Assembly: GCA_009377795.1 (NCBI GenBank)
Contig: WHTJ01000005.1
Coordinates: 1-64,000 of the forward strand
Reading direction: 5' to 3'
From: Propionibacteriales bacterium
GTDB lineage: Bacteria > Actinomycetota > Actinomycetes > Propionibacteriales > Nocardioidaceae
DNA length: 64,000 nt
In this document: positions 14,918 through 46,788 of the stretch, one piece after another
How positions within the stretch are numbered: position 1 is the first letter of the stretch
How the letters are laid out: every line of letters begins with the position of its first letter
The notes under the pieces: model-generated
Seen by the model: only the letters and a program-made list of their open reading frames with translations
What the model was told of the DNA's origin: nothing
Databases searched by the model: none
Program-made: the position numbers and the translations under genes

Positions 14918-14940
14918 CCAGATGTGCAATCTCGGCGCGA
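14918..14940 (-). repeat. Perfect half-copy of the TGCAATCTCGGCGCGA repeat
   Basis: A 23-bp sequence beginning CCAGATGTGCAATC, 5 nt after a stop codon. It is identical to 52241-52263 and, as reverse complement, to 20807-20829. No matching second arm lies close by, so alone it would not form the long hairpin. Confidence 0.8.
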
Positions 14941-20804: not shown

Positions 20805-20858
20805 CCTCGCGCCGAGATTGCACATCTGGTCGACCACATGTGCAATCTCGGCGCGAGG
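20805..20858. repeat. Complete palindromic copy of the TGCAATCTCGGCGCGA repeat
   Basis: A near-perfect 54-bp inverted repeat, 24 nt after the ruvB stop. Arms of 21 bp (CCTCGCGCCGAGATTGCACAT and its complement) flank CTGGTCGACCAC. It would form a very stable hairpin in RNA or a cruciform in DNA. It contains the 23-bp unit shared with 14918 and 52241. Confidence 0.9.
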
Positions 20859-21324: not shown

Positions 21325-21612
21325 ATGTTGGCTCAAGTGATCAGCCCCGTGCTCGCTGCCGGCGGCGGTGGTGACACGTTCTTCGATCTGAACGCCATCC
21401 AAGTGCTTCTGGTGTCACTGGCCGGCCTGGCACTCGTGTGGGTCGGCATCGTCGTGATCGGGAGGTCGAAGAAGGCCGACTACAGCGACACCGTACGGAT
21501 CGGGTTCAACGCCGTGGTCGGCATCGTATTGGTGGCGGCAGGCGCCGGAGCAGTGACCTTCGCGGTCCTGGGCAGGAGGATCCTGGACTTCCTCGGCATC
21601 ACCGGCGGGTGA
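21325..21612 (+). CDS. Small two-helix membrane protein, pilin (VirB2)-like by position
   Basis: A 95-aa protein with an N-terminal hydrophobic/alanine stretch, then two membrane helices (about 25-45 IQVLLVSLAGLALVWVGIVV and 61-86) joined by a short polar loop (GRSKKADYSDTV). This size and topology fit VirB2/TrbC-like pilins or other small T4SS subunits. It is the first gene of the cluster. Assignment rests on topology and context, not on a sequence motif. Its TGA overlaps the next GTG. Confidence 0.55.
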   Translation: MLAQVISPVLAAGGGGDTFFDLNAIQVLLVSLAGLALVWVGIVVIGRSKKADYSDTVRIGFNAVVGIVLVAAGAGAVTFAVLGRRILDFLGITGG

Positions 21613-22082
21613 GCCGGGTGCCGTCGATCCGCACTGACGATGCGCCGCGACGTCTGCGCGCGGTCTGGCTCGGACCGCGCGGGCACACCCTCAGCTGGGC
21701 GTGGGAGTACCGGCGGTGGGCGACGTTCGGGGCGATCTGGCTCGGGTTCTCCGCCGTCCTGGGCCTGATTCTGTGGCAGGCCGAACCCCTGCTCGGCCTG
21801 ATCGCCGGACCGATGTGGGCGATGCCGTTCGCGCACCTCGTGACCGCCCGGTTGATGCCGTACGTCGACTACGACCGTCCGATCAGGTACTGGCGGCGGG
21901 TGATCCCGGGGGAGTGGAAGCGGTCCCAGCAAACGCCTACCGGGGAGAGGCAGGTACGGGTGAACACCCGCGAGATCGTCGTCGTACACGACTGGAGCAT
22001 GGAAGTCCTGCGGACGTTGTACCTGCGCAGCACGGATCGCTGTGCGCCGCTGGCTCAGCCTCGATGGGGGTGGCGGCAGTGA
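21609..22082 (+). CDS. VirB3/PrgI-like membrane protein of the T4SS-like cluster
   Basis: A 157-aa protein with two adjacent membrane helices (about 35-73: FGAIWLGFSAVLGLILW, then LLGLIAGPMWAMPFAHLV) and a basic cytoplasmic C-terminus. PrgI/VirB3-type subunits are short two-helix proteins usually encoded just before the VirB4 ATPase, as here. It starts at GTG 21609, overlapping the previous stop. Confidence in the exact family is moderate. Confidence 0.55.
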   Translation: MSRVPSIRTDDAPRRLRAVWLGPRGHTLSWAWEYRRWATFGAIWLGFSAVLGLILWQAEPLLGLIAGPMWAMPFAHLVTARLMPYVDYDRPIRYWRRVIPGEWKRSQQTPTGERQVRVNTREIVVVHDWSMEVLRTLYLRSTDRCAPLAQPRWGWRQ

Positions 22083-22119
22083 GATCGCGAGTCGGGGTCG
22101 ACGGCGAGGGTGATCCCGC

Positions 22120-24750
22120 ATGAACATCGGCAAAGGACTGAAGAACCGGGTGTTCGGCCGCGAACGAGTGGTCGAGCTGGACCTGGAGGCCCGCGAGATC
22201 GTCGGCCATCTCCTGGTCACCCGGACGAGCCTGTGGGGCTGGTACGGCCTCGCACCGCAGGAATGGACCTTCACCAGCGAGGACACCCGTACCAGACTGT
22301 GGGACCAGAACGTCCACCGCTACGCGCAGCTGGCCGGGCATGCGATCCGGGTGCGGACCAGCTCGCGGCCGTTCCCGGCCTACGACTTCGCCCGCAAGCT
22401 CGACCAGGACACCCCGAACCCGCTGCCGGACGTGCCCGGCGTGGAGACGTTCGACACCTACCTGGAGGCTCAGCAGCGCCGGCTGCACACCTCCCTGCTG
22501 GATGACAAGATCGTCACCCTCGGCGTGCGGCTCGGAGACGCGCCGCCGGTGAAGATCCTGCGGTCCATGGTGCGGGGCGAGGCGCCGTCGACCGGGGCAG
22601 GGGCGAAGCTCCTGGAGGAGATCAAGCAGCTGAACCAGCACCTGGCCGGCACGGGATTCGACGCGCGGCCGCTCTCGCCGACCCAGATGGCGTGGCTGAT
22701 GCACCGTTCCTGCTCGCTAGGCATGCCGGTGCCGCCGCACGCGGGGGTCGCGGGCGGGGAGTGGACCGGGGAGGACCTCTACGCGTTCACCGATCCGGTG
22801 GACTGGTTCTACAAGCCGATGGGGCGGACCGTCCGGCTGGTCGGTCTCACGCCTGGCGAGAAGCCCGTCGAGCGCCACGTCGCGGTGCTGACGCTCGGCC
22901 GGATGCCGACCCGGGAGTTCCCCCAGGACGGGATCGACCCGTGGATGCTCGCCACCGATCGCCTCGCGGTCCCGGTCGAATGGTCGGCTTCGGGCTATCT
23001 GGTGCCGCCGACCGCTTTGCGGTCGGCGGTCGAGTTCGAGCGCAACCGTGCCGAGAACATCGACAAGCACTACCGGGAGCACGAGGAGACGCCGCCGCCC
23101 GCGGTGACCCGCGGGATCAAGGAGGCGATCGCCACCTACGACGAGGTGACCGAGGGGGACGCGCGCACAGCGGTGCGGTTCGCCGGCCCGATTAGGGCCG
23201 CGGTCTGGGGCACGACCGAGGACGAGTGCCTGAGCCACGCCCGCACGTTGATGGACCGGTACGGCGAGTCGTACCGGATCGAGGTGGCCCATCCGCCCGG
23301 ACAGGTGGAGCTGCTGCGGGAGTTCATCCCCGGCGAGCTGTGGGCGCTGTCCGGATACCAGCGGCGGATGTCGGTGGGCTACTTCGCGGCCGGAATGCCG
23401 CATGTGTCGTCGTCGGTGGGTACGCCGACCGGTCCCTACCTGGGGTACACGACGGCCACCGCGCGTCGCGCCGTACTCCACGACGGGCACTTCCCGATGG
23501 AGCGGCTGAACGCACCGGGCGTCGTACCGATCGTCGCCGAGCCCGGGGGCGGCAAGTCCACGCTGGTCGGTGTCTTGGCCTATCACTCGGTGACCCGGGG
23601 GCAGCCGACCATCATCCTGGACCCGTCGGGCCCGCTGGCGCGGCTCTGCCAGATGCCGAGCTTCGCCCCGCACGCCCGGCATCTGAATCTCACCGACGCG
23701 GAGCCTGGAACCCTCGCGCCGTGGCAGCTGATTCCCGAGCCGCAGCCGCAGGAGTTCCGCAGCGAACGGGAGTACGGGCGGGCCAAGGCCCGCGCCCACG
23801 CCGAACGCAAACAGCTCGGGTTCGACACCTTCCGGATGATGCTGCCGAACACCACACTGCGGAACCCCGCCACCGACAAGCGGCTGCGGGACGCGATCCG
23901 CTACGTCGGCGGGTCGGTGTCGGTCAACCCGCACCAGGTGATCAAGATGCTGCGCGCCGGCGACGAGTACGCCCGCGAGATCGCGGACCTGCTCGAGGAG
24001 TCGTCGGAGTTCCCGTTGGGGGAGCTGATCTTCCCGACCGACAGATCCTCGGAGTTCACCGCGGAGGCGGCCACCGACAAGCAGCTGGTCGTGATCACCA
24101 TGCCCGGTCTCGTGCTGCCGTCGCCGGACACCGACCGGGACCATTGGAGCATCGAGGAGTTGTTCGCGCAGCCGCTGCTGCATCTGGCCGCGTTCTACAC
24201 CTCCCGGTTCATCTACCGCCGGTCGATGGGGGAACGGAAGAACATCTTCCTCGACGAGTCGCACTTCATGGGCAACTGGGGCTCGGGCCGGGCGTTGTTC
24301 GTCCGGCTGGGGCGCGACTCCCGCAAGTGGAACACCGCCGTCTACACGTCGTCCCAGCATCCCGAGGACGTACTGTCCGTCGGCCGGGTGGAGGCCCTGA
24401 TCGGGGGAGCGCTTGTCGGCCGGCTGGAGGACCTCGACATCGCGGAGAAGGCGATGACCGGCCTGCTGCGTGCGCCCAAGGAGTACGCCACGGCGGTCAC
24501 CAAGCTGTCTCCGCGGCCGGCGCCGGGTTCGACCTTCGACGTGTCGAGGACCGGGGAGTTCATCTACCGCGACTGCTATGGCCGGGTGGACAAGATCCGC
24601 GTCGACCGGGACTGGGCTCCCGAGCTCGCCACTGTCCTGGAGACCACACCCGGCCTGCCACGTCTGGCATCGAAGGAGGCACCGCCGCAGCTCTTCATCG
24701 ACGAGGTGGCCGATCTATTCGGCCTCGGGCGCGATGGTGCGGCGGCATGA
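22120..24750 (+). CDS. VirB4/TraE-like type IV secretion ATPase
   Basis: An 876-aa cytoplasmic motor. The C-terminal half has Walker A EPGGGKSTLVGVL (about 474-486), Walker B NIFLDESHFMGNWGSGRALF (about 708-727) and the RLGRDSRKWNTAVYTSSQHP segment typical of VirB4/HerA-FtsK ATPases. The N-terminal 450 residues match the size of the CagE/TrbE/VirB domain. VirB4 proteins power assembly of conjugation or secretion channels. No VirD4/TraG-type coupling ATPase is nearby. Its stop overlaps the next gene (ATGA). Confidence 0.85.
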   Translation: MNIGKGLKNRVFGRERVVELDLEAREIVGHLLVTRTSLWGWYGLAPQEWTFTSEDTRTRLWDQNVHRYAQLAGHAIRVRTSSRPFPAYDFARKLDQDTPNPLPDVPGVETFDTYLEAQQRRLHTSLLDDKIVTLGVRLGDAPPVKILRSMVRGEAPSTGAGAKLLEEIKQLNQHLAGTGFDARPLSPTQMAWLMHRSCSLGMPVPPHAGVAGGEWTGEDLYAFTDPVDWFYKPMGRTVRLVGLTPGEKPVERHVAVLTLGRMPTREFPQDGIDPWMLATDRLAVPVEWSASGYLVPPTALRSAVEFERNRAENIDKHYREHEETPPPAVTRGIKEAIATYDEVTEGDARTAVRFAGPIRAAVWGTTEDECLSHARTLMDRYGESYRIEVAHPPGQVELLREFIPGELWALSGYQRRMSVGYFAAGMPHVSSSVGTPTGPYLGYTTATARRAVLHDGHFPMERLNAPGVVPIVAEPGGGKSTLVGVLAYHSVTRGQPTIILDPSGPLARLCQMPSFAPHARHLNLTDAEPGTLAPWQLIPEPQPQEFRSEREYGRAKARAHAERKQLGFDTFRMMLPNTTLRNPATDKRLRDAIRYVGGSVSVNPHQVIKMLRAGDEYAREIADLLEESSEFPLGELIFPTDRSSEFTAEAATDKQLVVITMPGLVLPSPDTDRDHWSIEELFAQPLLHLAAFYTSRFIYRRSMGERKNIFLDESHFMGNWGSGRALFVRLGRDSRKWNTAVYTSSQHPEDVLSVGRVEALIGGALVGRLEDLDIAEKAMTGLLRAPKEYATAVTKLSPRPAPGSTFDVSRTGEFIYRDCYGRVDKIRVDRDWAPELATVLETTPGLPRLASKEAPPQLFIDEVADLFGLGRDGAAA

Positions 24751-26777
24751 ACGGACCGCGCTGGTCGTGGGCGACCCGGATCGGGAACGTTCTCGTCCTG
24801 CTGGTGCTCCTGCTGCTCGTCCCGGTCCCCGCGGCGCAGGCCGCCTGCGAGGGCGATCCGGTGTCCGCCGCCCGGCCGGACGGCGGCCTGGTCGGCTGGT
24901 TCGTCACCAAGCCGGACGACGTACCGCCGGCGGAGGCGCGTCCGTTCGCGGACAACTCGAAGTACTCCGTGTCGGACGTCTACGGCTGGGGCACCCATTG
25001 GGGAACGTACGACCTCGGCTGCGGTCCCGACGCCGCGAAGGCTCCGACCGCCGGCCCGTTCACCGCATTCGGCAATCTTGCGCTCGAGGTGTCGAAGTTC
25101 GGCGGAGTGTTCCTGTCGTGGATCGGCGGCTTCGTCGAGAACCTCCCGCTCGGCTGGCTGGACGCGGTGATCACGGACATCAACCGGGCCGTGATGGACA
25201 ACATCTGGAAGTTCTGGTTCCCCCTCACCATCCTCGCCATCGGGATCTTCCTTCTGTGGCGGGCACGACAGGCGGCGTTCGCCGAGACCGGCTCGGCCTT
25301 CGCCTGGATGGTCGTCGTACTCGTCGTCTCGGTGTTCTTCCTCAACTACCCGGCCAAGGCCGGTGAGCTCTTCGACGACGGCCTGGGTCAGCTCTCCTCG
25401 GTCGCCCGCAAGCCGTTCGGCAACTCCACGGTGGAGTCGCTGGTGATGGAGGAGATCATCTATCCGACCTGGTCGGCCGGTCAGTTCGGATCCGCCGACT
25501 CGCCGACCGCGCGGAGGTACGGTCCGGAGCTGTACTGGTCGACCCATTACACGTGGGCCGAGGTCGAGGAGATGCGGGGCGATCCGGACGCGGCGGAGGA
25601 GATCGCCGAGGAGAAGGGCGAGACGTACGAGCGGATCGCTCAGGAGGTCCAGGATTCCGACCCGGCGGCGTACGCGCACTTCACCGGCAACGAGGCGCAG
25701 TACCGGCTCGGGCAGGCGGTGATGTCGTGGCCGTTCGTGCTGTTCACCGCGCTGTTCATCGCGTTCGGGCTCGCCCTGGTGGCCATCGGGTTCCTGATGG
25801 TGCGCCTGTTCGTGGTTGCGTTTCCGGTGATCGGGCTGATCGGCGCCCATCCGAAGGGGCATGTGCACATTCAGGGGCTGTGGGACCTGTTCGCCGCCGC
25901 TCTGTGGAACGTGGTGAAGTTCAACTTCATCGTGGGGGTCTACACGTTGGCCGTCGGTGCCCTGCTCGTGGTGAACATGAACCCGCTCGGGAAGTTGTTC
26001 TTCCTCGTTGTCCTCACCGTGGTCTGCCTGATGATCGCCAAGCCGTTCCGGGCGCTGAAGTCGATGGTCCCCGGCGTCAACCCCAACCAGAGCTATCTCG
26101 CCGGTACCATGCGGCGGGCCGTGGACTATGCCATGCACCGGCACGCCGTCGAGGAGGGCGTCGCGGCCGCCGATCGCAGGGCGCGGCCCGACTCGCCGAC
26201 GACGACCACACAGCCTCCCGGGCGGAAGCTCCCCGAGGAGGAGACCCTCCCGCCGATTCCGGTCGCCTCGCCCGGCCGGCACGCCGGTCGGCCGACCGTC
26301 CCCGAGCCGTACAAGGTGGACATCGAGTGGGGTACTCCGACGGCCCCGGCGACCACGCCGTACGGTGCGCCGGGACTGGCGCCAGGCGACGTACCCGCCG
26401 GCCGGCCGGCTCCGGCGATCGGCAAGCACCGGGGAGCGTCCGAGCCCGTACGGGAGCTGCCCGCCGTACCCGCCGCCGCGACCGATCGACCCTTCGACCC
26501 GACCGCTTCGCCGGCCATGGTCCCGGCCGCGGCCACGGCGGACGGGCGCCTCGAGCCGTCGTACGACTTCGGTGTGCCGAAGCCGCCGGACGCCGCGTCC
26601 GGTCCGCCGCTTCGGCGGTTCGCGATCGGCGAGGACGAGGCCGTCGAACCCGTCTACCAGCGGAACCCCGCCAGCCCGCAGGACGCGGACGTCGAGATCC
26701 CGCTGGCCGATACCCAGCTCGACCGGGAGGGCAACGAGGTCTTCATGGTCTACTCCCGTGCCGATCGCCGCCTCTAG
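24747..26777 (+). CDS. VirB6/TrbL-like polytopic membrane protein with long cytoplasmic tail
   Basis: A 676-aa protein. It has a signal-peptide-like N-terminus (residues about 12-33 ending AAQAAC), an extracytoplasmic segment, then hydrophobic helices near 112-130, 151-171, 181-199, 330-375 and 395-435. The last 210 residues are proline-rich and polar (TTTTQPPGRKLPEEETLPP). Multi-helix channel proteins with soluble tails are VirB6/TrbL-like in Gram-positive T4SS. Translationally coupled to the ATPase gene upstream. No cargo motif is recognisable. Confidence 0.7.
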   Translation: MNGPRWSWATRIGNVLVLLVLLLLVPVPAAQAACEGDPVSAARPDGGLVGWFVTKPDDVPPAEARPFADNSKYSVSDVYGWGTHWGTYDLGCGPDAAKAPTAGPFTAFGNLALEVSKFGGVFLSWIGGFVENLPLGWLDAVITDINRAVMDNIWKFWFPLTILAIGIFLLWRARQAAFAETGSAFAWMVVVLVVSVFFLNYPAKAGELFDDGLGQLSSVARKPFGNSTVESLVMEEIIYPTWSAGQFGSADSPTARRYGPELYWSTHYTWAEVEEMRGDPDAAEEIAEEKGETYERIAQEVQDSDPAAYAHFTGNEAQYRLGQAVMSWPFVLFTALFIAFGLALVAIGFLMVRLFVVAFPVIGLIGAHPKGHVHIQGLWDLFAAALWNVVKFNFIVGVYTLAVGALLVVNMNPLGKLFFLVVLTVVCLMIAKPFRALKSMVPGVNPNQSYLAGTMRRAVDYAMHRHAVEEGVAAADRRARPDSPTTTTQPPGRKLPEEETLPPIPVASPGRHAGRPTVPEPYKVDIEWGTPTAPATTPYGAPGLAPGDVPAGRPAPAIGKHRGASEPVRELPAVPAAATDRPFDPTASPAMVPAAATADGRLEPSYDFGVPKPPDAASGPPLRRFAIGEDEAVEPVYQRNPASPQDADVEIPLADTQLDREGNEVFMVYSRADRRL

Positions 26778-26789
26778 CGAGGAGGAGTC

Positions 26790-27470
26790 ATGAGAGGACG
26801 ACCGGATCGGTATACCGACGGCTCGGACCCGTTGTCCGATCCGAAGAAGGTACGCCGGTTCATCGCCATGTCGCGTCCCGGAGCGGCGATACTGGCCGTG
26901 GTGGTGATCGTCGTCGGCCTCGTGGTCGCGCTCAGCCAGTTCACCGGCAACGACGAGGCATCGCCGCAGACCGTCACCGAGGAGCGGACTCCGCGTCCGC
27001 GGGCGAGCGCCACGGCCCAGGACGCCGACACGCCGAAGAGTCCCGCGACCGGAAAGGACGCCACCCGGCCCGAAGAGGTACCCGAGGACGCCGTACGCGC
27101 CGCGATCGACTTCACCAACGCCTGGAAGCTCCGGGACAACCGGTCGCAACGCCGCGCGGCCCTCGAGCGGGTCGCGACGCCGCACCTGACCGAGGCCCTG
27201 CTGCTCGTACCCGCCTCCGAGCTGTCGAAGGGCGACATCGTCGGTGAGCCGGAGCCCGACGCGTACTCCAACGTGTACGCCAACCTCCACGTCACCCTCA
27301 GCACCGGCGAGGTCATCGCCGTCAGCGTGGCGCAGCAACCGGACGGGAGCTGGGTCGCCGTGGACGTGCAGCAGGTACGCAAGCCCCGCACCGACGACAC
27401 CGAAGCGGAGGAGCGCGAAACCGAGAGCAACGACAGGGACGAGTCCAATCAGAGGAACCAGAAGCGCTGA
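26790..27470 (+). CDS. VirB8/TcpC-like bitopic conjugation protein
   Basis: A 226-aa protein with a cytoplasmic N-terminus, one membrane helix (about 32-51, AAILAVVVIVVGLVVALSQF), a threonine/proline/alanine-rich linker, and a C-terminal domain (about 96-200) with the look of an NTF2-like fold (VRAAIDFTNAWKLRDNRSQR, YANLHVTLSTGEVIAVSV). VirB8/TcpC proteins have exactly this layout and scaffold the channel outside the membrane. The tail is highly charged. A GAGGAG ribosome-binding site precedes the ATG. Confidence 0.65.
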   Translation: MRGRPDRYTDGSDPLSDPKKVRRFIAMSRPGAAILAVVVIVVGLVVALSQFTGNDEASPQTVTEERTPRPRASATAQDADTPKSPATGKDATRPEEVPEDAVRAAIDFTNAWKLRDNRSQRRAALERVATPHLTEALLLVPASELSKGDIVGEPEPDAYSNVYANLHVTLSTGEVIAVSVAQQPDGSWVAVDVQQVRKPRTDDTEAEERETESNDRDESNQRNQKR

Positions 27471-27472
27471 GC

Positions 27473-28966
27473 ATGAACCCGGCGACCGCAAGGGCAATCG
27501 CCCAGCTCGCACAGTCCCGCACCTCACGCCGGGTGGCGGGCCTCCTCGTCGCGGGCAACGCGTTCCTCGTGCTGCTCCTGATGGCGATTCCGGTGGTGCT
27601 GATCGTGGTGATCCTGGCCGCGGTCGACGCGTCGGTGCAGGCCACGCAGCCCGTGGAGGGCTGTGACCTGGTGCGGGTCGGCGAGACACCCGTCGTGGGG
27701 GATCTCGACGACGAGCAGGTCAGCAACGCCGCCGCCATCGTGAACGTCGCCCGGAAGAACGGCATCAACGAGTACGGGCAGGTCATCGCGATCGCCGCCG
27801 CACTGCAGGAGTCGACGCTGCGCAACTACCGGGGCGGGCACGCGGACTCCCTCGGGTTGTTCCAACAGCGCCCGTCGCAGGGTTGGGGCACCGCCCGGCA
27901 GATCGGCGACCCGGTCAAGTCGGCCGAGGCGTTCTTCGGGGTCGCCAGGCATACCGACAACACCGGGTTGATGGACATCCGGGGATGGCGGAAGTTGTCA
28001 TTGACCGCGGTCGCCCAGCAGGTGCAGCGCAGTGCGTTCCCGTACGCGTACGCCGACGAGGAGCCACTCGCTCGCCAGGTGGTCGCGACTCTGCGCAGCG
28101 ACGACACCTCGTCGGCACTGTGCGGCAATCCCGGTGCCATGTCGTGTCCGTCCACCGGATTCTCGGTCGAGGCCGGCCTGACCCCGGACGGACTGCGGGT
28201 GCTGCGCTGCCTCGGTGACAAGTTCTCCCAGATCGCCGGATTCAGCGGTACCGGTGAGCGAGCCGCGAACCCGGACAGCGACCACGAGACCGGGCGTGCG
28301 GTCGACGCCGTGATCCCGAACTGGGACACCAGAGCCGGCAACGCCGAGGGGTGGAGAATCGCGGGCTGGGTCAAGCGGCACGCCTCGAGACTCGGGGTGA
28401 CGTACGTGATCTTCGACGGCAAGATCTGGAGCCGGCAGCGCGCCGACGAGGGCTGGCGGGAGTACGAGCACCCGTCCGGCTCGACCGACCCGACGTCGCG
28501 GCACCTCGACCACGTGCACGTGTCCGTGGCCGGGAATGCCGCCGGAACCGGCGCCGGCGGACCCGGAAGGGTGCGGCTGCCGCTGTCCGGCGGCTATGCC
28601 CTGACCGCGGCCTTCGGGGAGTGCTCCGGGCTCTGGTCGGAATGCCACACCGGCCTGGACTTCGCCGCGCCGTCCGGCGCGCCGGTTACCGCGGTGGCCG
28701 ACGGTACGGTCGTCTCGACCACCTGGAACAGCGCGTACGGGAACCTCACGCAGGTCCGCGGTGACGCGGCCGACGCCGAGTACTGGTACGCGCACCAGGA
28801 GTCCCAGTACGTCGAGGTGGGAGACCGGGTCAGAGCCGGCCAGACGATCGGCACCGTCGGCAGTACGGGCAACAGCACCGGCCCACACCTGCACCTGGAG
28901 GTGCGCGTGCGCGGGAGGCCGGTGGATCCCGAGACCTGGTTGGCCGATCATGGTGTGGACCCGTGA
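27473..28966 (+). CDS. Three-domain cell-wall hydrolase (VirB1-like): transglycosylase-like + M15-like + M23
   Basis: A 497-aa membrane-anchored protein (helix about 22-50). Domain 1 (about 80-205) resembles lytic transglycosylases or lysozymes (AALQESTLRNY, candidate catalytic E113). Domain 2 (about 228-352) has an M15/VanY-like zinc pattern, SDHETGRAVD (H271, D278) and HLDHVHV. Domain 3 (about 370-490) is an M23/LytM endopeptidase with H392-TGL-D396 and H472-L-H474. All three catalytic signatures look intact. It should open peptidoglycan for the channel. Starts 2 nt after the VirB8-like gene. Confidence 0.82.
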   Translation: MNPATARAIAQLAQSRTSRRVAGLLVAGNAFLVLLLMAIPVVLIVVILAAVDASVQATQPVEGCDLVRVGETPVVGDLDDEQVSNAAAIVNVARKNGINEYGQVIAIAAALQESTLRNYRGGHADSLGLFQQRPSQGWGTARQIGDPVKSAEAFFGVARHTDNTGLMDIRGWRKLSLTAVAQQVQRSAFPYAYADEEPLARQVVATLRSDDTSSALCGNPGAMSCPSTGFSVEAGLTPDGLRVLRCLGDKFSQIAGFSGTGERAANPDSDHETGRAVDAVIPNWDTRAGNAEGWRIAGWVKRHASRLGVTYVIFDGKIWSRQRADEGWREYEHPSGSTDPTSRHLDHVHVSVAGNAAGTGAGGPGRVRLPLSGGYALTAAFGECSGLWSECHTGLDFAAPSGAPVTAVADGTVVSTTWNSAYGNLTQVRGDAADAEYWYAHQESQYVEVGDRVRAGQTIGTVGSTGNSTGPHLHLEVRVRGRPVDPETWLADHGVDP

Positions 28967-28980
28967 GGAGGTGAGCCCCG

Positions 28981-29412
28981 ATGGGCAGGGATCCCCATGA
29001 CGCCGGCCCGGACGGCGATCCGCTCACCGAGGCATGGCCGGAGGACGAGCGGACCGGCGACGAGGCTTGGGAGTTCGATGCGGACGGCTACCTCCGGGAC
29101 GTCTCCGCGACACACCGGGCGGCGTACGGCCCGCCACCCCGGCCGGGCGTGCCGCTGCCCGTGATGGACGTGCCCACGGTCAAGGGCCGCCGGGTCGTGC
29201 TGATGACCGCGGCCGGGCCGATCTACGACCACCGGGCGGCCAGCGAGGTCTACACCGACGAGTCCGGGAGCTGGATCACCGTGGCCACCGAGCGGGCGTG
29301 GTACGTCTGGCAGGCGTCCGACCAGCGTGAACGGCCCGAGCTCGGCCCGCCCGGCTCCCGGGCCTGGGCGGCGGTCAACGTCTACGTCGAGGTGTACGCC
29401 GACGGTCCCTAG
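28981..29412 (+). CDS. Hypothetical soluble protein of the T4SS-like cluster
   Basis: A 143-aa acidic protein without membrane segments. The first 60 residues are low-complexity (Asp/Glu/Pro/Gly); the rest looks beta-rich (VKGRRVVLMTAAGPIYDHRA, GSWITVATERAWYVWQ). I recognise no family. It follows the wall hydrolase by 14 nt with a strong GAGGAGG ribosome-binding site and so belongs to the same operon; a regulatory or substrate role is possible but unsupported. Confidence 0.55.
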   Translation: MGRDPHDAGPDGDPLTEAWPEDERTGDEAWEFDADGYLRDVSATHRAAYGPPPRPGVPLPVMDVPTVKGRRVVLMTAAGPIYDHRAASEVYTDESGSWITVATERAWYVWQASDQRERPELGPPGSRAWAAVNVYVEVYADGP

Positions 29413-29459
29413 GTCCGGAGGGAGGCGCCCATGCCGGACGAACGCAACCAGGAGGAGCG

Positions 29460-29660
29460 ATGGCCGTGACCAAGAAGGGCGGAGCCGGTGCGAAGCTGGC
29501 CTTCGTCAAGTGGGCGGCGATCACGCTCGCCGTGGTCTTCCTCGCCTTCTACCTGTTCTCGGAGTCGCACCGCGTGACCGACGCCCTGCAGGCGGTGTTC
29601 CTGGCGGTTTGTGTCGCGGTGGCCGCGGTACTCGTCTATCGTGCCATGCGGTCCCGATGA
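29460..29660 (+). CDS. Small two-helix membrane protein
   Basis: A 66-aa protein: short basic N-terminus (MAVTKKGGAGAK), then two hydrophobic helices (about 17-32 and 41-60) and a basic end. AGGAGGAG ribosome-binding site 5 nt before the ATG. It is the last clearly linked gene of the cluster. No family recognised; could be a minor channel subunit. Confidence 0.6.
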   Translation: MAVTKKGGAGAKLAFVKWAAITLAVVFLAFYLFSESHRVTDALQAVFLAVCVAVAAVLVYRAMRSR

Positions 29661-29752
29661 GCTGTTTCACTCTCCGCCACTGATCCGCTACGCTAAATGA
29701 TGCACGTGTCGGGAGCCACGCGTGGGTGGCGCAGCCCTCACAAGGAGGAGTC

Positions 29753-29923
29753 ATGCCGGTTGCATTGTTGAAGAGGAGCCTGATCTTCCTGGTCGCTGCC
29801 TTCGCGATCTTCTATATGCTCACCCAGCCGGAGGGCGCGGCAAGCGCGATCGAGGCCGTGGCCGGTGGGATAGGCGACGCGTTCGATTCGCTGATGAGCT
29901 TCTTCGCCGCATTGGCCGAGTGA
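29753..29923 (+). CDS. Small single-pass membrane protein
   Basis: A 56-aa protein starting MPVALLKRSLIFLVAAFAIF with one strong membrane helix and an amphipathic C-terminal part (AIEAVAGGIGDAFDSLMSFF). The ATG at 29753 has AAGGAGGAG upstream and is preferred over the in-frame start at 29726. It has its own candidate promoter, TTTCAC (29665-29670), 18 nt, TACGCT (29689-29694). It lies between the T4SS-like cluster and yajC; which it belongs to is unclear. Confidence 0.6.
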   Translation: MPVALLKRSLIFLVAAFAIFYMLTQPEGAASAIEAVAGGIGDAFDSLMSFFAALAE

Positions 29924-30055
29924 CAGGACGGGGTCCGCTACCTCGGGTTGTGCGTATCTCCGGATAGACTCCGCATCTGGCTGGCATGACGCTGGCCACA
30001 CCACCGACATCGGTCCGGTGGTCGACCATGCACAAACGATTTCAAGGAGTTTCCG

Positions 30056-46159: not shown

Positions 46160-46558
46160 CTAGGGAACCGGGCTTGGGTACAGCTCGATGTCGGCTCGAT
46201 GCGGGCCTTGCAGTTTCGCATCGCCGGTGAGCAACGGACAGTCGAGCAACTCCGCCAGCGCGATATAGGCGGCGTCGTACGCGGTGAAGGTATCCCGGAG
46301 CTGCCAGACCCGTTCGGATACAACCGCACCGGAGTAACGCTCGATCTGAAGATCTGCGAAGTCTGCCCGTACGCTCTCGGCTCGGTCAGCCGTCAGCTTG
46401 CCACCCAACGCTAGGCCCCGTAACGCGTTGGCGAACTCGAAGTCGATGAGATGCGGCGCGTGTAGCACCCGCGGCGCCGACAGCCGCAACACCTCGTCGG
46501 CTTCGGCCTCACCCAATGCACGGAGAACAAGTGAGCTGTCGACGACGAGATCGGTCAC
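46160..46558 (-). CDS. vapC: VapC-type PIN-domain ribonuclease toxin
   Basis: A 132-aa PIN domain with all four acidic catalytic residues: D7 (VVDSS), E41 (FEFANALRG), D95 (TAYDAAYIALAE) and D113 (LLTGDAKL). Such toxins cleave tRNA or rRNA when their antitoxin is lost. The GTG start overlaps the vapB stop by 4 nt. Confidence 0.9.
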   Translation of the reverse strand: MTDLVVDSSLVLRALGEAEADEVLRLSAPRVLHAPHLIDFEFANALRGLALGGKLTADRAESVRADFADLQIERYSGAVVSERVWQLRDTFTAYDAAYIALAELLDCPLLTGDAKLQGPHRADIELYPSPVP

Positions 46559-46788
46559 TCACCTCTCCCAGCGCGCGTAGCAGCCACGTAATCCTCCATG
46601 GTCAAGCCCGCGGCGGGCCTCTGGGCCGCCCTCTCGAGCACCTCGGCGACGGTCGGTCGGGACGCCGCCTCGATGATCATCCTCCGGAGGTACGCGGTGA
46701 GGCTCATTCCCTCCGCGGCCGCCCGCATCCGCATGACGTTGAGTGCATCCACGGGAACGTCCCGAATCTGGATCGGTTTCGTCTCCAT
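46555..46788 (-). CDS. vapB: VapB-type antitoxin
   Basis: A 77-aa protein starting METKPIQIRDVPVDALNVMR. The N-terminal half looks like a ribbon-helix-helix DNA-binding domain (EGMSLTAYLRRMIIEAA), and the C-terminal half would wrap the toxin. It precedes and overlaps vapC. It should repress its own promoter together with VapC through the repeats at 46787-46816. Confidence 0.88.
   Translation of the reverse strand: METKPIQIRDVPVDALNVMRMRAAAEGMSLTAYLRRMIIEAASRPTVAEVLERAAQRPAAGLTMEDYVAATRAGRGE

Follow-up and report, generated by a model that had tools for sequence, protein, structure and literature searches.

In the chromosome of a Propionibacteriales bacterium of the family Nocardioidaceae an intact cassette centred on a VirB4 gene separates ruvCAB from yajC-secDF, and the question arises what a conjugation-type apparatus is doing at this site and whether it still belongs to a mobile element. 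The window analysed here is a 64-kb stretch of this genome (64,000 nucleotides), which was described preliminarily as carrying an orphan, domesticated secretion-like machine encoded by nine genes. The statement that the block breaks a conserved gene order was borne out when the ruvB-yajC site was profiled in relatives of the same family or order: in 27 of the 29 ruvB loci examined only about 80–660 nt separate ruvB from the yajC gene behind it, with no block between them, and the block is therefore an insertion in the lineage of the window. Among the other cassette loci checked none had the cassette at ruvB/yajC. In one genome (G026, C1:83122-84133) ruvB lies in two frames split at codon 224/225, which could be an assembly error.

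The left edge of the block is located within the stretch past the ruvB stop, beside a REP-like palindrome (Table 1), and on the right the block ends upstream of the TAGACTCCG box in the yajC leader, a box that also precedes yajC in L069 (genome G009), L070, L094, and L097. The palindrome was considered as an att site and ruled out because its core, TGTGCAATCTCGGCG, has about 360 copies genome-wide (189 forward and 171 reverse with at most 1 mismatch, against 0 for the reversed control); further copies of the REP-like palindrome in the window lie at 14923 and 52246. The two ends of the block have no repeat of more than 10 nt in common, and no tRNA gene and no match to integrase, Rep, or FtsK was found in the 64 kb. 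The GC3 of the cassette is 0.83–0.92 and that of its neighbours 0.86–0.93, and the GC content matches the neighbours likewise, so that both the absence of integrase, tRNA target, and att repeat and the neighbour-like base composition, which had been noticed initially, were confirmed. Promoter and terminator scans gave no signal above chance. Elsewhere in the window (46160-46788) two small minus-strand genes of low coding score and VapBC-type toxin-antitoxin appearance adjoin a stretch of lower GC.

Table 1. Coordinates of the block, its genes, and its junctions in the window.
Feature	Coordinates	Strand	Description
REP-like palindrome	20805..20858	.	Directly 3' of ruvB; 27-nt arms, 96% complementary
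p1	21325..21612	+	95 aa, two TM segments; pilin-like, VirB2-type by topology
p2	21609..22082	+	157 aa membrane protein before VirB4; VirB3-like by position only
p3	22120..24750	+	VirB4/TcpF-type ATPase, 876 aa
p4	24747..26777	+	676 aa, N-terminal hydrophobic segment and six TM segments; VirB6/TrbL-like
p5	26790..27470	+	VirB8/TcpC-like; one TM and NTF2-like extracytoplasmic domain
p6	27473..28966	+	Membrane-anchored cell-wall hydrolase; C-terminal M23 peptidase
p7	28981..29412	+	143 aa soluble protein, small beta-barrel core, cassette-specific
p8	29460..29660	+	66 aa, two TMs; outside the conserved cassette
p9	29753..29923	+	56 aa membrane protein, widespread actinobacterial family; outside the cassette
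yajC leader	29924..30055	+	Carries the TAGACTCCG box; block ends upstream of the box

The block contains nine ORFs, p1–p9 (21325-29923), all open, in the same direction, and coding by score; the system itself, however, comprises seven genes, p1–p7 (21325-29412), because p8 is restricted to the window and the p9 family occurs mostly in genomes free of the cassette. In iterated profile searches of homologous loci the p1–p7 order was recovered from about 100 actinomycete loci, with a match to VirB4 (p3) in 105 loci, p4 in 105, p1 in 100, p2 in 97, p6 in 97, p5 in 87, and p7 in 81, the figures for p1 and p4 being too high because these two profiles cross-match in some loci. The same searches of the ~100 loci revealed no p8 homologue in any other cassette locus, while the p9 family (~55 aa) was matched in 18 of 24 genomes searched, the majority of them cassette-free, and has a second copy in the genome of the window (C165:5976-6134). 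Both proteins were thus excluded as channel subunits, and of the nine-gene block proposed earlier the conserved p1–p7 cassette is what stands.

Among the seven products the labels of VirB4 (p3), VirB8 (p5), and M23 hydrolase (p6) are well supported. The p3 protein matches PF12846 (E 2.3e-23) and the NCBIfam TcpF model (4e-19), which is the best named NCBIfam match for 16 of 16 aligned VirB4 homologues, and it retains the Walker motifs, namely, the P-loop GGGKST (with A rather than G at the first position) and IFLDE. An AlphaFold model of p5, built from 46 sequences and having pLDDT 93–98 over residues 101–190, gave TcpC as the top PDB match (3ub1; Z 11.2, rmsd 2.7 over 100 residues), followed by TraM of pIP501 (Z 10.2) and several VirB8 proteins (Z ~10). 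The peptidase of p6 belongs to PF01551 (E 1.2e-31) and is accompanied by a weak lysozyme-like part and a middle domain with HVHV, the motifs being kept in relatives. The assignment of p4 to VirB6 is weak: PF04610 (TrbL/VirB6) matches 3 of 18 p4 homologues, at best with 8.5e-5, and gives no match to p4 of the window itself. By topology and position p1 may be the pilin and p2 the VirB3 counterpart; a TrbC/VirB2 match was obtained for 1 of 12 p1 homologues, at 0.04, and p2, which has a conserved RTDD...LGP at the N-terminus, matched no Pfam family. The model of p7 has a core with pLDDT ~97, and the fold search with it returned no convincing match (best Z 5.9). The near-complete Gram-positive channel core that had been suggested can consequently be upheld for the ATPase, the VirB8 protein, and the hydrolase, is weaker for VirB6, and for the pilin and VirB3 depends on topology and position. 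A defence-system reading was rejected after PADLOC produced no convincing match to the cassette proteins, the only one being mads_8 at 8e-4 for VirB4.

The usual partners of such a channel were searched for among unlinked genes of the genome, a 182-contig assembly of ~97% completeness, so that the gene for a motor or a relaxase may have escaped assembly. No match was found to the MOBF/TrwC relaxases (the one relaxase family searched) or to PF02534 and PF12696 of the VirD4/TraG coupling proteins, in agreement with their absence from the locus as first described. The FtsK-like set of the genome consists of the housekeeping FtsK, a probable EccC (1540 aa, with a pair of FtsK domains), the AICE TraB proteins on contigs C90, C19, and C134, a 651-aa protein on contig C72, where a Toprim-primase locus is also found, and a fragment on contig C5. 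The fragment, which lies beside DnaK/DnaJ-like genes and is weak against TraB, was dropped as a candidate motor. The plasmid-type FtsK has no close relative in this set, since the best non-housekeeping protein scored 62 bits against its profile and the cassette-linked FtsKs, some of which had gone into the profile, scored 130–1028. A neighbouring motor is also missing elsewhere: among 66 loci that extend 9 kb or more past VirB4, in which FtsK and TraB were both searched, an FtsK is near the cassette in 42 and none lies within ~10 kb in 24, the motor-less loci including Microlunatus, Nocardioides, Kineosporia, Planosporangium, and Dactylosporangium. As the channel has no coupling motor of its own, it is likely to export a protein or to build a surface structure and not to pass plasmid DNA.

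The main rival to this reading is that the channel still moves DNA, driven in trans by an AICE TraB of this genome or by an FtsK-like protein encoded away from the cassette, so that one channel would be shared by the mobile elements of the genome. The cassettes on plasmids and in Micromonosporaceae do stand beside an FtsK of ~700–900 aa, the genome holds, besides the C72 protein, at least three AICE-type TraB-Rep-integrase sets (C90, C19, and C134; loci L132, L134, L135, and L136, including C72), and in one relative, G444, an AICE with TraB, Rep, and integrase follows directly past the cassette. TraB, however, has been described as a T4CP-like motor working without other T4SS subunits (PMC12857230), the pSAM2-type protein reportedly moving dsDNA with no T4SS involved (PMC12857230, PMC3158045), and the scores of the resident FtsK-like proteins stay well below those of the cassette-linked family. 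A review has raised dsDNA transport by the Tcp apparatus (PMC12857230), which together with the TraB motor bears on the way in which an FtsK motor and the channel could cooperate. On balance a DNA-moving channel with a motor in trans is considered unlikely, and a role other than self-transfer is preferred.

The cassette is not confined to this lineage. At least 579 relatives were found in a GTDB genome scan, and the same cassette is present on linear plasmids from Streptomyces, Nonomuraea, and Rhodococcus. In the family of the window only 10 of 198 genomes carry it. In a quick VirB4 tree (SH-aLRT 97 and 100) the window groups with G138, a member of another family of the class, and with three Propionibacteriaceae, outside the main Nocardioidaceae clade and apart from most cassettes of its own family; the identity of its VirB4 to that of G138 is 59–60%. 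This placement supports horizontal acquisition of the copy, its kin being Microlunatus and another order, and amelioration after the acquisition is suggested by the G138 locus, which has 60.6% GC, while the window copy is host-like. Flanks are common to three Kineosporia species, to G131 and G233, and to G401 and G284, which indicates vertical inheritance in these groups. Besides G444, where an AICE is close to the cassette as mentioned, G461, G496, and G138 have an integrase-bearing AICE ~10–20 kb from it, the cassette contig of G138 holding two AICEs. Thus the cassette occurs both in mobile surroundings and as a stable chromosomal locus. The preliminary description had treated integrase or att ends and a relaxase near the block in relatives as the sign of a decayed ICE, and this sign was found in part, as an integrase-bearing AICE within ~20 kb in these four genomes, which makes a mobile origin likely, though the window copy looks fixed.

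Two further observations concern the relatives. In the closest of them long foreign-scoring genes lie just 3' of p7 (L046 17948-19999, L146 17636-21009, and L148 16961-22373), one with an HSP90-type ATPase domain and the others giving no Pfam or PADLOC match. In G009 VirB4 is divided between the ends of contigs C4 and C337 with overlapping query coverage, which is probably an assembly break and possibly an insertion.

Evidence that the cassette is maintained comes from pairwise dN/dS (NG86, approximate ORF starts), measured on pairs of relatives, the genus of the window being represented by a single genome. In motor-less pairs of Kineosporia, Nocardioides, and Microlunatus the ratio was 0.05–0.16 for VirB4, in motor-less pairs it was 0.08–0.15 for p1, and every gene measured stayed below 0.61, so the cassette of these relatives is under purifying selection. 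Together with the host-like composition this argues that the block is not obviously an active element and not obviously debris either. It may still be proposed that the block is the undecayed and now functionless remnant of a linear plasmid or ICE that had integrated here, as relatives are mobile on plasmids, partner genes are absent nearby, and the distribution in the family is patchy; yet all seven ORFs are intact at ~40% divergence from the nearest relative, GC3 agrees with the host, and purifying selection and conserved flanks are seen in motor-less relatives, which makes this explanation improbable. A still active mobile element with overlooked ends is a very improbable reading of the block, for although its closest relatives adjoin genes with foreign-looking codon use and the G138 cassette shares a contig with two AICEs, neither an integrase or Rep gene nor a tRNA gene or a repeat at the junctions was found, the yajC promoter region is intact, and the composition is host-like.

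We therefore favour, with moderate confidence, a chromosomally fixed channel retained for a purpose different from the transfer of its own element. How such a channel would be assembled, in which direction it would work, and what its substrate and role may be can be proposed as follows. The p1–p7 genes encode a relaxase-independent actinobacterial T4SS-like channel of the Tcp/linear-plasmid kind, which was acquired horizontally and has since, it seems, become a fixture between ruvB and the promoter of yajC. In the membrane p2 and p4 would form a base powered by the VirB4-like p3, p5 would serve as the extracytoplasmic scaffold, p6 would open the peptidoglycan, p1 would form a pilin-like conduit or surface fibre, and p7 may be a cytoplasmic accessory. 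The initial view of an orphan, domesticated machine and not an active conjugative element is accordingly reasonable in the light of the missing partners, the host-like composition, and the selection acting on relatives, with the correction that machines of this kind are already known.

A 2011 survey reported surprisingly few T4SSs in actinobacteria (PMC3158045); despite this the cassette is widespread, and some copies have no neighbouring FtsK yet are under purifying selection. This raises a testable question, namely, which task is performed by a conjugation-type channel that has neither relaxase nor dedicated coupling motor, and a natural comparison is offered within one family by Actinoplanes with an adjacent FtsK and Dactylosporangium without it. 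Only tentatively can the motor-less cassette, which selection maintains in several families, be regarded as a domesticated chromosomal machine for the export of a substrate other than DNA or for the building of a surface structure, which would be a new function for the T4SS of these bacteria. In the literature we found no description of the cluster at ruvB-yajC or in Nocardioides, nor of a motor-less architecture kept in several families.

The cassette as such, on the other hand, is not the undescribed system for which it was initially taken, given its many relatives, its presence on linear plasmids beside FtsK, and its resemblance to the published cmd and SLP2 genes (PMC2782261). The window contains the VirB4-family ATPase, the VirB8/TcpC NTF2-like protein, and the cell-wall hydrolase by which a Tcp/MPF-FA channel is recognized, and it lacks the relaxase (MOBF searched), VirD4/TraG, integrase, and attachment sites of a T4SS-type ICE. 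The TcpF and TcpC matches described above point to the Tcp system of Clostridium perfringens pCW3, which is a conjugative plasmid with the FtsK-like coupling protein TcpA (PMC12857230), a motor of which the window has no counterpart. The relaxase-free transfer modules of the linear plasmids pSM17C and pNSL1 and of the Nonomuraea sp. NBC_00507 plasmid have the p1–p6 order of the window, with VirB4 ~30–35% identical to p3 and p7 not convincingly found; they differ in having an FtsK/SpoIIIE-domain neighbour and usually ParA nearby, both absent from the window, and no relaxase is annotated in the stretches read. The VirB4 clusters of Micromonosporaceae (Actinoplanes, Micromonospora, and Salinispora) are, like the window, chromosomal and of p1–p7 order, with VirB4 ~40% identical and with the flanks conserved between G131 and G233; unlike the window they mostly have an ~870-aa FtsK just downstream. 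Chromosomal clusters of another family (f20) are more distant, with VirB4 only ~28% identical.

The remaining comparison is with cmdABCDEF (SCO4126-4131) of S. coelicolor, a chromosomal operon for five membrane proteins and a VirB4-like ATPase, reported to be similar to the SLP2 transfer genes, the deletion of which impaired sporulation and chromosome segregation and left plasmid transfer unaffected (PMC2782261). The likeness of the window cassette to cmdABCDEF is drawn from the published description and distant homology, and its likeness to SLP2 tra from the same report (PMC2782261); by analogy, the operon may serve as a precedent for a non-self-transfer role. Judged from its predicted proteins, the cassette between ruvB and yajC is a Tcp/MPF-FA-like channel, kin of the linear-plasmid cassettes and distantly of SLP2 tra and cmdABCDEF.
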